Source: Novosphingobium sp. JCM 18896
GTDB lineage: Bacteria; Pseudomonadota; Alphaproteobacteria; Sphingomonadales; Sphingomonadaceae
Assembly: GCF_025938095.1 (NCBI RefSeq)
Contig: NZ_JAPCZF010000001.1
Location: 930,001 to 994,000 of the forward strand
Direction: 5' to 3'
Length of the DNA: 64,000 nt
The position numbers and the translations under genes are program-made. The notes under the pieces were generated by a model, which was not told the DNA's origin, did no database searches, and saw nothing but the letters and a program-made list of their open reading frames with translations. Positions 43,102 to 49,652 of this stretch are shown here, one piece after another (within the stretch, counting starts at the first letter, position 1; each line of letters starts with the position of its first letter).

Positions 43102-43596
43102 GTGAACAAAGGTCGCTTAGCTTTGATCGTGATGCCGCTCGCGCTGCTCGGCGCCTGCGGCGGGCAGACGCCCGCGGAGAAGGCCGCTTCGGACGCACGC
43201 GCCGTCGCCGAGGTCGAAGCCGTGCAGAAGCGCAAACCGCCGATCCAACCGCTCGAAATGGGCGTGGTCGATCCCAACGTGCGGCGGCTGTTCAACCTCT
43301 CGGAGCATGGCTGCGGTTTCTTCACCGATCCCAATCCCGGCGCCTTTCCACTCGCCGTCATCGGCAGCGACAAGGCGGTGTTCCAGCTCAATGGCGAGCC
43401 GGCGATCCTCGCGTCGGACAGCGGCAGCCCGGTGATCGCCGGGAACATCCACGAGAAATACGTCGGCCGGCAGCAGTCGGCGCAGCTGGAACGCGACCCC
43501 GATCGCCTGACGATCCGCGACAGCTTCGAGCGGATCGTCTATCAGGCGGCGGGCATGCTGCGTTGCTCGGAACCGGCCGAAGCCGCCGCGCGATAG
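43102..43596 (+). CDS. Putative lipoprotein, function unknown
   Basis: A 164-residue protein with a lipoprotein signal: VNKGR, a hydrophobic helix LALIVMPLALLG, and lipobox LLGAC with Cys at about 19. The mature protein begins with a charged helical stretch, then a compact domain with Cys in HGCGFF and LRCSEP that might form a disulfide. I do not recognise a family. The GTG 43102 lies 41 bases after mutL. The final 55 bases overlap the minus-strand gene at 43542, so one of the two C-termini may be misjudged, though both frames are open. Confidence 0.75.
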   Translation: MNKGRLALIVMPLALLGACGGQTPAEKAASDARAVAEVEAVQKRKPPIQPLEMGVVDPNVRRLFNLSEHGCGFFTDPNPGAFPLAVIGSDKAVFQLNGEPAILASDSGSPVIAGNIHEKYVGRQQSAQLERDPDRLTIRDSFERIVYQAAGMLRCSEPAEAAAR

Positions 43597-44582
43597 GCCT
43601 TGGCCCAGGCCAGCACGTCCTGCCGCGCCCAGGCGAGCATGTGGAAGCAGGGCCGGTACTGGCCCGCCTCGTACAACGCCTTGCGCTGCGGCGCGAAGCG
43701 CAGGGCGTCGGCGGTGGCATAGGCGTCCTCGCCGACACGCATGACGAAGGCCCCGCCGCTTTCGGGAATGGCGCCGATGAACGACAGTTCGGGGCTGATC
43801 CGGGCCACCTGTGGATCGTGCCACCACGACCAGCTACTGATCCCTCGGATTTCGGGGTTGGCTTCGAGCAGGTCCGCGACGCGCAGGTAGAGCTCGGCAT
43901 AGCCCTGGGCGTTGAAGTCCTTGACCAGGCGCCGGTCGAAATGGAGCCCCCAGACGGCCTTCACCCCGCCGAGCCGCCAGGCCATCCGCGCCATGGTCAG
44001 CGCCTGACCGGCCCCGCCCTTGAACGCCAGGCTGCGCGGAATCCCGCCGAGCGGATCGAGCACCTCGACCCCGCAGGGCAGCAGGCGGCCGCGGCAGACC
44101 GCGAAGTCCTTGGCGAAAGGGTCATGGCCGTGGCGGAAGAAGCCCTTCCGGCCTTTGCCCAGGTCGGCGACCACGCGCGCGAGATAATCGTCGAGCACGC
44201 CGCGCGCCTCGGAGGTCAGGCGCATCGGCGCGGGCGGACCGTCGACAACCGCGCGCGCGATCAGATGGAGCAGGACGAGGCGGTGATAGGCCTCGACCGC
44301 CTCCATCCCACCTGCGGCCTCGATCGTCGCGCAGGTCGCCCGCGCTTCGGCCGGAACCGCGTGATACTGCGAGCCGGCGGGCAGCGCGGCGAAAGGCGCC
44401 AGATAGGCGTCGATCGGGTGGTCGGCGAGCAGGCCCGCCGCAAGGCCGGACTCGATCTCGCGGACCATCGCGGCGATCGCGTCCGGGGGCGGCAGCGCCC
44501 GGCGCTGCGAGTCCTGGGGAGCAGGTGGCGCCGACGGGGGGGAAGGATCGGCTATGGTCTCATCCCGCTTCAAGGCTCGCAA
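43542..44582 (-). CDS. Conserved hypothetical protein
   Basis: A 346-residue, mainly helical cytoplasmic protein, no signal peptide. The N-terminal ~30 residues are Pro-rich. A glycine-rich segment near DPLGGIPRSLAFKGGAGQAL, then SSWSWWHDPQVARISPELSF, gives the most conserved-looking parts. I do not recognise the family. The start is probably TTG 44582 after GAAGGA, since no ATG occurs before residue 39. The end overlaps the convergent lipoprotein gene by 55 bases. It follows the outer-membrane gene in the same direction after 72 bases and could belong to the MerR-controlled unit, but this is unproven. Confidence 0.7.
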   Translation of the reverse strand: MRALKRDETIADPSPPSAPPAPQDSQRRALPPPDAIAAMVREIESGLAAGLLADHPIDAYLAPFAALPAGSQYHAVPAEARATCATIEAAGGMEAVEAYHRLVLLHLIARAVVDGPPAPMRLTSEARGVLDDYLARVVADLGKGRKGFFRHGHDPFAKDFAVCRGRLLPCGVEVLDPLGGIPRSLAFKGGAGQALTMARMAWRLGGVKAVWGLHFDRRLVKDFNAQGYAELYLRVADLLEANPEIRGISSWSWWHDPQVARISPELSFIGAIPESGGAFVMRVGEDAYATADALRFAPQRKALYEAGQYRPCFHMLAWARQDVLAWAKAYRAAASAGSEQRSMPAA

Positions 44583-44654: not shown

Positions 44655-45959
44655 TCAGCGCCCGAGGATGAAGCGCGCGAACAAGGTATAGCCCCAGGGA
44701 TTCTTGCCGTAGGCGACGTCGAGCGCATCGGGCTTGGCATAGAGCGCCGCTGAGCCGCCGAGCGCGAGTTCGAACGGCCCCAGCGGCACACGCCGGGCGT
44801 AGCCGAGCTGGAACTTGCTGACGCGAAACACCTGGTCGTGCAGCGGATCGGCGTGATCGGGGAAGAACTCGTCGTTGGCGACGTTCTCGAACCGGCCGAA
44901 CAGCGTGTTGCGATCGTCGAGGTCCCAGTTCGCCTCGGCCTGCCAGGCCGAGAGCGAACCGCCCCCTGAACCGTTATTGGGCCGGCGATCCTTGTTGCTG
45001 AAGGCCAGCATCGCCGCGAAGCCCTTGCCGTCATTGTAGTGCGCCGAGGCGGTGACGCGGTGCTCGTCCTCGCCCGGGTGCAGTTCCTCGGGTTCCTTGA
45101 TCTGGCCATAGCTCGTCTGCAGGGTCCAGGCGGGCGAGGGGCTCAAGGTCGCGCGGACCGACCAGCTGTCGAGCTTGGGCGTCTCGATCCCCCAGCGACG
45201 TTCGTCGGGTTCCGCCCCGCGGAAGGCCGAGGCCTCGAGCTGGAACAGCGGCGAGGAATAGCCGGCGGTGACGACGCCATAGGTGATATGCGTCGAATCG
45301 AACCAGTGGTGTGTGATCGGCGGCTCGGGATTGTAGCGGGCCGAGCCGCGCATCATGAAGGCGCTGGGGCCAAGCGCGGGTTCGCCGACCGGGCCGCCGT
45401 AAAGGAACAGCTTGTCGTCGCCGCCCAAGTCGAAGTCGACGCGCGCGGCCAGTTCCATGAACAGGTCGTGCGGATGCTGGCGATCGACCAGCGGCAGCCC
45501 GCGCGCGGTCTCGCCGGTGGCGAAGAGATTGGGGTAGCCGCGCGCGTCCATCGCCGGCTCGAGGCTCAGCATCGACTTGAGCAGAACGCGGCCGAAGCTG
45601 GTCTCGCGCTCGCCGGTGACCATCAGCATCGAGGTGACATAGGCCTTGTCGTCGCCGCGCGGCCCCGAGTGATCGGTATACTGACCCGAGACGAAGCCGT
45701 GCGCCATGACCATCCAGTCGCCCGTCGGCAGGTGCAGCCCGCGCATCGATTCATTGGCGGGCAGAAGCGCCGTGCCCGAACCCGCGCTCGGGCCGCTCGG
45801 CATCGCCTCGGCCATCTCCTCGCCATCGGCAGCCGGCATCGTGTGGCCCATGGCGGCGTGATCCGTCGCACCGTGATCGTGGTCCTGCGCCCATGCGGCC
45901 GGAGCCATGGCGATCGCCAGGGTGCTCGCGGCGAGCGAACGGACAGCCAGTTTCATCAT
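44655..45959 (-). CDS. Outer-membrane beta-barrel protein with His/Met-rich N-terminus
   Basis: A 434-residue exported protein. A signal peptide (MKLAVRSLAASTLAIAMAPAAWA) is followed by a metal-binding-like stretch DHDHGATDHAAMGHTM at about 26-41. The rest is rich in aromatic and charged strands such as SWSVRATLSPSPAWTLQTSYG and ends in FARFILGR, typical of a porin-like barrel. Two ATG codons (45959, 45956) follow GGAG; the second has ideal spacing. The gene starts 13 bases after the glutaredoxin-MauE gene and should be co-transcribed under the MerR-type promoter. His/Met clusters suggest copper, silver or mercury at the cell surface, but the function is not shown. Confidence 0.8.
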   Translation of the reverse strand: MMKLAVRSLAASTLAIAMAPAAWAQDHDHGATDHAAMGHTMPAADGEEMAEAMPSGPSAGSGTALLPANESMRGLHLPTGDWMVMAHGFVSGQYTDHSGPRGDDKAYVTSMLMVTGERETSFGRVLLKSMLSLEPAMDARGYPNLFATGETARGLPLVDRQHPHDLFMELAARVDFDLGGDDKLFLYGGPVGEPALGPSAFMMRGSARYNPEPPITHHWFDSTHITYGVVTAGYSSPLFQLEASAFRGAEPDERRWGIETPKLDSWSVRATLSPSPAWTLQTSYGQIKEPEELHPGEDEHRVTASAHYNDGKGFAAMLAFSNKDRRPNNGSGGGSLSAWQAEANWDLDDRNTLFGRFENVANDEFFPDHADPLHDQVFRVSKFQLGYARRVPLGPFELALGGSAALYAKPDALDVAYGKNPWGYTLFARFILGR

Positions 45960-45972
45960 AGTCTCCATTGTT

Positions 45973-46725
45973 TCAAAGATATTTGCCGAGCATCCAGGCG
46001 GCCATGGCCACCATGCCCAGGTTCTCGGCCAGCGAGACGAAGCCCAGCGGCACCCGGCTCGATCCACCGACGCAGGCACATTTGATGTCGCGCTTCTGGA
46101 CATAGACGGCCCAGAACACCGAGACCGCGCCGACCGTACCGATGAACAGCGCGATCGGGATCGACACCAGATCGAGCCAGTGCGCCGCCATCAGCGCGCC
46201 CGCCGACCATTCGAGGAACGGGTAAAGCCAGGCATAGGGCAGCCAGCGCCGCGCCAGCAGGTCGTAGCCGAGGAACATCGTCGCGAAGCTGTCGACGTCC
46301 TGCAGCTTGAGCATGGCCAGGATCATCATCGCGAAAGCGACGAACCATTCGCCGGCCACGACCGTCAGCGGCGTGCCGAGCACCGCGGTGCTGGCGGCGA
46401 GCGCGAGGCCCGCGGCTGTGGCAAAGACCGCGATCACCGGCACGTAGCTGGTCGCCTGCGGATCGCGGACCTTGAGGCCGAGATGACGACGCAGATCGTC
46501 GTGACCGCCGATCCGCTGGCCGTCGATGAACACCTGCGGCGTCGTCTTGACGCCGTGCTCGGCCTTGAACGCGTCGGTCTCCTCGCGCGTGGTCAGCCAG
46601 CGGTCCTCGACCGCGTAGCCACTGCTGCGCAGCAGGTGCAGCGCCCGGATTCCCCAGGGACAGACGTGCTTGTCCATGACCATGCGGTAGATCGTGGCCT
46701 TGGGCTTGGATGCTTGGCGTTCCAT
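45973..46725 (-). CDS. Glutaredoxin-MauE fusion membrane protein
   Basis: A 250-residue fusion. Residues ~10-85 are a glutaredoxin domain with HVCPWGIRALHLL, where the CxxC is CPWG (single active Cys), and TTPQVFIDG, the conserved cis-Pro segment for glutathione binding. Residues ~95-245 form a MauE-like membrane domain with four or five helices and a Cys pair in KCACVGG that may relay thiol redox power across the membrane. MauE/DoxX-type proteins support disulfide chemistry. No ribosome site precedes ATG 46725, and the predicted transcript starts only about 5 bases upstream, so it may be leaderless; ATG 46683 or 46677 are alternatives. Confidence 0.88.
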   Translation of the reverse strand: MERQASKPKATIYRMVMDKHVCPWGIRALHLLRSSGYAVEDRWLTTREETDAFKAEHGVKTTPQVFIDGQRIGGHDDLRRHLGLKVRDPQATSYVPVIAVFATAAGLALAASTAVLGTPLTVVAGEWFVAFAMMILAMLKLQDVDSFATMFLGYDLLARRWLPYAWLYPFLEWSAGALMAAHWLDLVSIPIALFIGTVGAVSVFWAVYVQKRDIKCACVGGSSRVPLGFVSLAENLGMVAMAAWMLGKYL

Positions 46726-46735
46726 GACGAATCAA

Positions 46736-46767
46736 CCTATAGCTTCCGTACCACGGTACGGAGTCAA
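46736..46767 (-). promoter_or_regulatory. MerR-type promoter/operator of the glutaredoxin-MauE unit
   Basis: On the minus strand: -35 TTGACT (46762-46767), a dyad CCGTACC-GT-GGTACGG (46746-46761), and a -10 CTATAG or TATAGG (46736-46742). The 19-20 base spacing is too long for normal sigma-70 use, as in MerR-family promoters that need twisting by the activator. The sequence TTGACTCCGTAC...GTACGGAAG matches the mer operator of Tn501/Tn21 as I remember it. The dyad also overlaps the ribosome site of the divergent merR-like gene. Confidence 0.9.
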
Positions 46768-46770
46768 GCA

Positions 46771-47169
46771 ATGGCGCTCACCATTTCGGAACTGGCGCGC
46801 GGCGCCGGGGTGGGGGTGGAGACCGTCCGCTTCTACCAGCGCAAGGGCCTGCTGTTCGATCCGCGCCCCGGCTCGGTCGCGAGCCCGCCAGGGCGGCGTC
46901 ACTATGGCGACGACGAAGTGCGCCGGCTACGCTTCATCCGCGGCGCTCAGCGCGCGGGCTTCACGCTCGAGGAAATCCGCGAACTGATGGACCTCGATCG
47001 CAGCAACGACCGGCCGAAGGCGCGGGCGATGGCGCGCGCGCGGATCGTCGAACTGGACGCGCGGATCGCCGAACTCGAGGCCGCGCGCCGCTCGCTAGAA
47101 AGCCTGGCCCGCGAGTGCGCCAAGTCCGACGAGGGCCCGTGCCCGATCATCGAGGCCTTCGAGCGCTAA
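46771..47169 (+). CDS. MerR-family metal-responsive regulator
   Basis: A 132-residue MerR-family protein. The winged helix is at 1-70 with VGVETVRFYQRKGLL (about 13-27), almost the mercury MerR sequence. The dimer coiled coil spans ~75-110. The metal loop is ECAKSDEGPCPIIEAF with two Cys spaced as C-x7-C, the CueR spacing, not the C-x8-C of mercury MerR. The dimer-partner position (Cys82 in MerR, Ser77 in CueR) appears to be Arg. So the operator looks mercury type and the metal site copper type. ATG 46771 follows CGGAG, which lies inside the operator, so binding also limits its own synthesis. Confidence 0.92.
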   Translation: MALTISELARGAGVGVETVRFYQRKGLLFDPRPGSVASPPGRRHYGDDEVRRLRFIRGAQRAGFTLEEIRELMDLDRSNDRPKARAMARARIVELDARIAELEAARRSLESLARECAKSDEGPCPIIEAFER

Positions 47170-48416: not shown

Positions 48417-48498
48417 GATATGCTCCGAATGATGCTTGAGCGCGCGCCCATACCGGGGTGCGGGGGAAAAGGCCAGCGGGGGAGGCGTAACACCTTGC

Positions 48499-48640
48499 AT
48501 CCTCCCCGGTACGGGGAGGGGGACCGTCCCCGCGCAAGCGGGGATGGTGGAGGGGGCTCTCCGGCAAACACGTCGTCCCGCCCGGAGAGCCCCCTCCGTC
48601 ATTCGCTCCGCGAATGCCACCTCCCCGTGCCGGGGAGGAT
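48499..48640. repeat. Nested palindromic repeat element (~142 bp)
   Basis: Outer arms at 48499-48519 and 48620-48640 are 21 bases each, reverse complements with one mismatch, and each is itself palindromic (atcctcccc...ggggagg). Inner arms pair 48552-48564 (gggggctctccgg) with 48583-48595. The core is the same as in the hairpin at 17013-17035. The element lies between ychF and the broken SDR gene. It looks like a small mobile or REP-type repeat; no terminal duplication of target sequence was seen. Confidence 0.8.
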
Positions 48641-48649
48641 GAAGAAACG

Positions 48650-49652
48650 TCAATCCAGCACGGCCTTGCCCCAGGCCGCGTAGGGGCTCTTCTCGAGCAG
48701 GCCGCGCTGGGTCTCGGCCGAGACGCGGTTGATCTCGAGCTGCGGCTTGTTGCCCGGATGGACCGGACGGCGCAGCGGGCGCGTACCCGCAGGCAGGGCG
48801 GCGATCTCGGCAATGGCCCTGGGCACCTCGATCGGATCGGGCAGGCCGGGGGGGCAGGGCTGCGGGAGCGGCCCCACCACCGGGCATCCGGCTCATCTGC
48901 GCGACCAGTTCGGGATAGCCGGCCTTGTGCTTGTCGTCGGCCCGCGCTGCCAGCGCCGCAGTATAGCGCGCACGGTTCCGGCCGATGCCCGTGGGAAAGC
49001 CGCCGGGCTCTATGATCACGACTTCGATGCCGTGCGGCGCGAGTTCGTAGGCGATCTGCTCGCTCATCGCCTCGACCGCGAACTTGGTCGACGAATAGAG
49101 CCCGCCCGCGGGCATGATGATCCGCCCCTGCTGCGACGAGACGTTGAAGATCAGGCCCGACTTGCGGCGGCGCATGCCGGGCAGCACCGCGCGCATCGTC
49201 CGCTGCAGGCCGAAGACGTTGGTATCGAAGGTCAGCTTGGTCGCTTCGAGGTCCTGCACCTCGACCGGGCCGGCGATGTTAATGCCGGCGTTGTTGACCA
49301 GCGCGTCGAGCGGCCCGCCGTTGCGCTTCTCGGCCTCGGCGACCGCGGCGTTGACCGAGTCCTCGGACAGGACGTCGAGCGGCAGGACCTGGAGATCGAG
49401 CTTCTCGTCGCGCGCCACCTTGAGCAGCGCCTCGCCCTCGGGCCGCGGCAGGTTGCGCATCGTCGCGAAGACGCGCGCGCCGAGCCGCGCATAAAGCAGC
49501 GCCCCGACGTTTCCGAAGCCCGACGAGGTACCGGTGACGAGGAAGCTCTTGCCCGCGAGCGGCTTGGTGCCTTGGGCGGAGCCGGGAACCGCAGCCGCGG
49601 CGGCGAGGGCGCCGCTACCGGCCAGAAGCGAGCGACGGGTGATCTCGGGCAT
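48650..49652 (-). pseudogene. SDR with Tat signal, frameshifted in a C7 run
   Basis: The N-terminus has a twin-arginine signal (EITRRSLLAGSGALAAAAA), then an SDR with TGTSSGFG (about 41-48), NNAG (about 120), Ser in NVSSQQG and YSSTK. The frame is intact to about residue 260, then leaves the SDR frame. The proper C-terminus (LPDPIEVPRAIAEIAALPAG ... AAWGKAVLD) lies in the +1 frame and ends at TGA 48652-48650. The switch coincides with a run of seven C on the minus strand (G7 at 48848-48854); six would restore one frame of about 333 residues. Either a true frameshift mutation, phase variation or a sequencing error. Exported SDRs are uncommon. GGAGG precedes ATG 49652. Confidence 0.85.

Follow-up and report, generated by a model that had tools for sequence, protein, structure and literature searches.

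The window analysed here is the whole stretch of 64,000 nucleotides from Novosphingobium sp. JCM 18896, in which a MerR-family regulator gene and a glutaredoxin-MauE gene diverge from a short region that carries a promoter/operator. The features of the locus are as follows:

46736-46767, minus strand: MerR-type promoter/operator (from the sequence, a pattern count and conservation in 82 promoters)
46762-46767, minus strand: -35 box TTGACT
46746-46761, minus strand: dyad CCGTACCGTGGTACGG, a perfect 16-bp palindrome
46736-46741, minus strand: -10 box TATAGG
45973-46725, minus strand: glutaredoxin-MauE fusion of the SmGrx3 type, 250 aa (Pfam, alignment, AlphaFold2)
44655-45968, minus strand: exported His/Met-rich protein, predicted porin-like beta-barrel (AlphaFold2 model, orthologues)
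46771-47169, plus strand: divergent MerR-family regulator, 132 aa (profile matches, alignment)

The minus strand from 46767 to 46736 reads directly as TTGACT-CCGTACCGTGGTACGG-AAGC-TATAGG, with a -35/-10 spacer of 20 bp and an orientation toward the glutaredoxin-MauE open reading frame (45973-46725). The initial annotation of this site had named the TTGACT box, the dyad, the -10 box and this orientation, all of which are confirmed by the direct read, and its assignment of the target as a glutaredoxin-MauE fusion is borne out by both Pfam profiles scoring over their cut-offs (PF00462, 32.5 vs 22.9 bits; PF07291, 50.7 vs 27 bits). It had placed the -10 box at 19-20 bases; the spacer is 20 bp here, while 19 bp is the value of the R100 mer promoter. 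The likeness that it saw to the Tn21/Tn501 mer promoters holds for layout and dyad type: the window dyad fits the proteobacterial MerR signal, TCCGTAC-(4)-GTACGGA (7-4-7), given in the cited part of Permina et al. (2006, PMC1526738), and the R100 mer promoter TTGACTCCGTACATGAGTACGGAAGTAAGGT, with its 19-bp spacer, also fits the window site. According to that same part of the source, 19 bp is the norm for mer promoters, and a few mixed-type mer promoters have 20 bp (PMC1526738).

The pattern TTGACTCCGTAC-N2..6-GTACGG has a single match in the window, while none of 100 shuffles contains it, and the perfect dyad occurs twice in the 5.33-Mb genome, in which TTGACT plus the dyad would be expected about 1e-4 times by a base-composition estimate with G+C assumed to be 66%. 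Among 82 distinct promoters preceding glutaredoxin-MauE genes, the window's included, TTGACTCCGTAC, a centre that is mostly YATG, GTACGGA and then TATA are near-invariant; the distance to the best -10 box is 20 bp for 74 of them and 22 bp for the other 8. A chance palindrome was ruled out by the shuffles, the two genomic copies, the absence of matches to a reversed control pattern and the 82 near-invariant promoters. More broadly, we judge it extremely improbable that the site is inert, whether as a relic or as a chance match, because the -35 box, dyad and -10 box are all near-invariant in these promoters and the control pattern gave 0 matches in 119 genomes.

The fusion protein joins a glutaredoxin domain with the monothiol site CPWG (Cys22), which is CPYG in most of 42 relatives, to a helical membrane domain with an invariant CACVGG (Cys216 and Cys218); all three of these cysteines are invariant in the 42 aligned proteins. 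In its AlphaFold2 model (mean pLDDT 82.7), residues 7-84 form a glutaredoxin fold (best match in the fold search 3msz, Z 11.4, rmsd 1.5, 74 aligned residues), and the matches listed cover mainly the glutaredoxin domain (residues 6-86), not the MauE half. The porin-like gene begins, at its predicted start codon, about 4 nt past the glutaredoxin-MauE stop codon, and the two genes likely form one operon. The mean pLDDT of the porin-like model is low (65.2), so that we read no more than "outer-membrane barrel" from this model. Downstream (3') of the porin-like gene, on the minus strand, a 346-aa open reading frame (window 43545-44582) has no Pfam or NCBIfam match. Elsewhere, window 48480-48650, within a 778-aa minus-strand open frame, is rich in inverted repeats (CATCCTCCCCGGTACGGGGAGG ... 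CCTCCCCGTGCCGGGGAGGATG).

The two-domain architecture is that of SmGrx3 of Sinorhizobium meliloti (SMa0280), which the cited part of PMC6315971 describes as a CPYG glutaredoxin with a MauE domain. The same part reports low deglutathionylation activity, lists heat shock as an inducing condition, and records that the Smgrx3 mutant had no phenotype, free-living or symbiotic, the function being reported as unknown (PMC6315971). A copy of this gene type on S. meliloti pSymA (L240), which may be SMa0280 itself, has CPYG where the window protein has CPWG; it shares with the window system CACVGG and a divergent two-cysteine MerR, and it has the same promoter with two mismatches, TTGACTCTGTACCATGCTACGG-n4-TTATAG. 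The description of SmGrx3, as far as the cited part goes, gives it neither a regulator nor a role in metal handling (PMC6315971). For a monothiol glutaredoxin of Synechocystis, GrxC, induction of the gene by copper shock is reported in the portion of PMC4182526 that we cite.

The regulator ATG (46771) lies 3 bp past the -35 box of the glutaredoxin-MauE promoter, and the operator edge GGAG just 5' of it is possibly the ribosome site. The protein is over the curated cut-offs of the MerR superfamily profiles (PF13411, 69 vs 21.6 bits; PF09278, 69.1 vs 25.4 bits). Its best NCBIfam model is TIGR02051 MerR, at 104.3 bits under the cut-off of 150.85, and it scores 85.4 bits against CueR (TIGR02044), under the cut-off of 147.4. 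Its only two cysteines, Cys116 and Cys124, are spaced C-x7-C, and there is no cysteine at the position of MerR Cys82. Tn501 MerR binds Hg(II) through Cys82, Cys117 and Cys126, and Cys82 belongs to a trigonal Hg site in which its mutation lowers Hg affinity (PMC5027573, in the part cited); in the alignment to MerR, the window regulator has the Cys117 and Cys126 equivalents and lacks Cys82. We compared 85 distinct regulators that go with a CCGTAC site, R100 MerR among them: the Cys82 column holds Cys in R100 MerR only, Arg in 82 and His in L086, and is unreadable in the fragment L109, while the other two sensor cysteines are present in 84 of 85. The C-x7-C spacing is found in 82 of 85, the exceptions being R100 MerR (8 between), L086 (6) and the fragment L109; one regulator (L185) has one extra Cys elsewhere in the stretch ahead of the sensor pair.

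The regulator shares with Tn21/Tn501 MerR and its operator the TCCGTAC-4-GTACGGA dyad, the TTGACT -35 box, the divergent layout and the nearest place in the tree, but differs in lacking Cys82, in having C-x7-C (C-x8-C in MerR) and a 20-bp spacer (19 bp with MerR), in the absence of mer genes and in its score under the MerR cut-off. With CueR, HmrR and CopR it shares two sensor cysteines 7 apart and targets of the multicopper oxidase and P-type ATPase kinds, and CueR flanks the same fusion gene in other bacteria; it differs from them in its CCGTAC (not CCTTCC) operator, its place outside the CueR clade, its score under the CueR cut-off and the lack of an aligned Ser77. Ser77 is the mark of monovalent-metal sensors according to the cited part of PMC11591864; its place is a two-residue gap in the clade alignment, and 35 residues back from the first Cys stands Arg81, with Ser78 nearby. 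Mean identity of the clade to R100 MerR is 55% over residues 1-75 and 26% in the sensor region, against 34-41% and 30-38%, respectively, to three CueR proteins. In a midpoint-rooted tree of only 135 columns, 61 clade rows (60 distinct) group together with support 100/98, and the clade adjoins R100 MerR and one alphaproteobacterial Tn21-like MerR with support 94/91, just under the 95/80 mark of the tool. The reading "CueR by another name" was ruled out by the operator (CCGTAC, not CCTTCC), the CueR score and the tree.

The same data bear on a possibility that has to be weighed against a copper or silver switch, namely that the regulator still senses Hg(II), bound linearly by two thiolates, and that the operon serves to protect thiols from mercury. 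Linear binding is possible with two cysteines, the operator and the DNA-binding half are Tn21-like (the 55% identity to R100 MerR in residues 1-75, vs 34-41% to the three CueR proteins), and the clade adjoins R100 MerR in the tree; on the other hand, Cys82 is absent in every aligned clade member except the unreadable fragment L109, and the genes around the site, described below, also speak against it.

The divergon is widespread. In 284 of 72,556 plasmid records a match spans 80% or more of the fusion, 29 of 387 genomes of a class sample match the fusion at E 1e-30, and 424 stretches of the GTDB collection encode a relative at E 1e-3, the best 80 of which were taken for the locus analyses of GTDB relatives. 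We compared 131 glutaredoxin-MauE loci, with the window genome and near-copies included. A divergent two-cysteine MerR with a CCGTAC promoter is present in 79 of these; one more (L031) has a MerR with the box CCGTACCACACTACGG, outside the search pattern, and two have a CCGTAC box without an adjacent MerR. At one locus (L083) a CCGTACCATGGTACGG promoter precedes glutaredoxin-MauE with no MerR match within 3.5 kb, and this promoter is possibly an in-trans target.

Other regulators accompany the fusion elsewhere. Three of the 131 loci have CueR with a CueR box and a further one (L136) has a CueR box and a CueR that is unlabelled; boxes of the CCTTCC-GGAAGG type go with CueR, and two CueR partners are over the CueR cut-off (163.1 and 161.7 vs 147.4 bits). 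In 9 of 131 loci the gene directly ahead of the fusion is of the CsoR family, and another 3 have a CsoR-type box alone. CsoR is a repressor of a protein family unrelated to MerR. All 11 CsoR-family sequences near the fusion show C..H..C, which we take to be a copper fingerprint; the one that was scanned has no NCBIfam model over cut-off. No regulator or box was found under the search criteria in 33 of 131 loci, five of which (L033, L075, L121, L131 and L140) have a CueR- or CsoR-like gene farther off or on the opposite strand.

Within about 6 kb on each side, copper genes were found in 20 of the best 80 of 424 loci and not in the other 60, and mer genes in 0 of these 80. The mer queries were the mer proteins of R100 and of a Methylobacterium plasmid, a set that finds mer genes in alphaproteobacterial mer loci. 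Over all 131 loci the only one with mer genes is a CueR-type plasmid locus (L034), with a mer operon about 4 kb away. CopB is present in 14 of the 80 loci, vs roughly 0.5% expected (about 1.2 copies per 3.3-Mb genome; rough figures), an enrichment that does not count independent events, since these loci were kept for matching the window best and include near-copies. Five of ten annotated plasmid loci carry copper genes: copABCD in Blastomonas; CueR, a cupredoxin, a copper oxidase and DUF305 in Paracoccus; a P-type ATPase, CueR, a multicopper oxidase and DUF305 in Dinoroseobacter; a multicopper oxidase-CopB pair in Alteromonas; and a CopA-family copper-resistance protein in the cyanobacterium Leptolyngbya. 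The other five have none beyond the regulator.

The earlier remark that no merT, merP or merA was in view is thus correct, no mer gene lying near the site, and no MerA over cut-off was found in the genome itself. A decayed mercury operon nearby was ruled out, there being no MerA over cut-off in the genome. On another contig (C26:70476-71317, L160) there is a MerT-like gene at 29.6 vs a cut-off of 32.9 bits. The MerR divergent from it retains three cysteines in the sensor region, and the operator is GTCTGTAGCGGCTACAGAC; with a regulator of its own and an operator of another sequence, this gene is not where the window site came from. Judging from the mer genes at 0 of 80 and 1 of 131 loci (the latter CueR-type, L034), the lack of a MerA over cut-off in the genome and co-targets that are mostly copper genes, together with the missing Cys82, we consider it distinctly unlikely that the regulator still responds to Hg(II).

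We also surveyed mer loci in 289 genomes of the class. A single MerR is over the family cut-off (L215), with the operator CCGTAG-TTGA-CTACGG and merT, merP and merA, and 13 further loci have mer-type genes beside a regulator. The box CTGTAG-3-CTACAG is found in 10 of these 13 (L217, L219, L220, L221, L226, L227, L230, L232, L234 and L235); L228 has a one-base variant of it, L229 has CCGTAG-TTA-CTACGG, and L236 has no such box. The alphaproteobacterial mer regulators resemble the window regulator in being MerR-family proteins divergent from their targets, but differ in having mostly CTGTAG-3-CTACAG before merT, merF or merA and, in those read, a Cys near the Cys82 place. In L225, and as near-matches in L223 and L233, a CCGTAC-like box lies on the same strand as a MerR-like gene. 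These MerR-like genes fall outside the clade in the tree, and some of them adjoin mer-like or P-type ATPase genes.

Sites were also sought in 119 same-family genomes, with the site pattern at up to one mismatch and the reversed pattern as control. There are 30 sites in 23 of the 119 genomes and none for the control, and 23 of them lie ahead of glutaredoxin-MauE at no more than 300 bp. The other seven include a site (L205) that precedes a heavy-metal P-type ATPase followed by a multicopper oxidase and CopB, and the second perfect operator copy of the window's own genome (C6:58027-58048, L163), which lies upstream of multicopper oxidase-CopB. At the C6 site no clade regulator adjoins, and the CopB match on that contig is split over two places. 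Two sites (L206 and L209) have orthologues of the porin-like gene directly behind the operator, without the fusion, and one (L211) precedes the gene of a DUF305 protein that also has a sub-threshold MerC match (16.3 vs 27.6 bits). Another two (L188 and L190) lie just upstream of Cys-rich peptides of 25 and 30 residues that share GC[RK]CNPCTCK[TN]CNC and have no Pfam match; by their sequence these peptides are metallothionein-like. No recognised mer gene stands behind any of the 30 sites in the 119 genomes. All 23 site-bearing genomes carry a clade regulator at E 1e-28, 2 of the 25 regulator-bearing genomes have no site, and 94 of the 119 have neither, a co-occurrence that is partly expected because most sites flank the regulator gene.

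The initial annotation had seen here a mercury-type control site recruited for a thiol-redox membrane protein. As the account of a local oddity this is not supported: as a divergon the pair is widespread, with 79 of 131 loci, the regulator lacks Cys82, the co-targets are mostly copper-defence genes, the fusion is elsewhere found with CueR or CsoR, and the sampled mer loci mostly have another palindrome. Because the regulator lacks one of the three metal-binding cysteines and copper-defence genes stand behind the site in many alphaproteobacteria, the most likely reading is a switch that responds to copper (or silver) but reads DNA as the mercury type does, and Cu(I)/Ag(I) would be the favoured metal.

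A broader sensor of thiophilic metals or thiol stress (Cu, Ag, Au, Hg, electrophiles, heat), with the fusion as an enzyme of general thiol repair that is often found in the company of copper genes, has also to be considered. A monothiol glutaredoxin and the invariant CACVGG cysteines suit thiol chemistry, and SmGrx3 has low deglutathionylation activity with heat shock listed as inducing, in the cited part of PMC6315971. Moreover, when Dinoroseobacter shibae was compared with and without a 102-kb plasmid bearing genes annotated for copper/cobalt transport, there was a slight difference for silver, while copper, cobalt and zinc tolerance was the same, according to the part of PMC9426580 cited here; in a different D. 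shibae strain a plasmid likewise of 102 kb, possibly the same one, has the fusion gene next to CueR. This change in silver rather than copper tolerance (PMC9426580) is in line with a broad sensor, and it speaks more for Ag(I), or for redundancy, than for a simple role in copper. Copper is, however, what the CueR and C..H..C CsoR partners and the multicopper oxidase and CopB co-targets point to, and we regard the broad sensor as unlikely.

Taking together the site, its conservation, the regulator clade, the loss of Cys82 and the co-occurrence with copper genes, all read from sequence, we consider it probable that the regulator is a two-cysteine MerR-family activator with a Tn21-MerR-like head that serves as a Cu(I)/Ag(I) switch for the glutaredoxin-MauE/porin-like operon. 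Counting against this are the missing aligned Ser77, the Smgrx3 mutant free of any phenotype (PMC6315971), the D. shibae comparison (PMC9426580), the 33 of 131 loci in which neither regulator nor box was found under the search criteria, the 60 of 80 loci and five of ten plasmid loci that showed no copper genes, the mer operon near L034, and the sub-threshold MerC match of the DUF305 protein. MerR-family proteins activate by metal-driven untwisting of promoter DNA. The 46771-47169 product would bind its own CCGTAC-N4-GTACGG operator, and the metal-free dimer on the dyad would hold RNA polymerase at the overlong 20-bp spacer in poor geometry; Cu(I) or Ag(I) at Cys116 and Cys124 would then untwist the spacer and turn the operon on. 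In trans, the regulator probably also acts at the second perfect site before copA (multicopper oxidase)-copB on contig C6. During copper stress, the task of glutaredoxin-MauE, presumably in the inner membrane, is probably to repair or shield thiols on the membrane side, or else to deal with metal bound to glutathione as a putative substrate. A full-text search of the open-licence literature, which is no proof of absence, gave no recognised report linking glutaredoxin-MauE to copper or describing a CCGTAC copper MerR.

The metal specificity of MerR-family regulators is assigned from operator sequences (the aim of PMC1526738, as stated in the cited part), and by operator and nearest relative the present clade would be named mercury regulators, while its sensor residues and targets say copper/silver. 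We lean towards regarding the clade as a distinct MerR lineage that has kept the mercury operator and DNA-reading head, has lost the third mercury cysteine, and now runs a dispersed copper/silver-defence regulon in alphaproteobacteria, including a membrane-tethered monothiol glutaredoxin of the SmGrx3 type, a His/Met-rich porin-like barrel and metallothionein-like peptides. It would then be an example from nature of the half of MerR that reads DNA parting company with the half that senses metal, and, if this is true, a mercury-type palindrome is no predictor of mercury sensing and the wrong metal could be assigned to biosensors that use CCGTAC promoters. It would also offer a candidate role for SmGrx3-type glutaredoxins, which are repeatedly neighbours of copper genes, in several alphaproteobacteria as well as in Alteromonas and a cyanobacterium.
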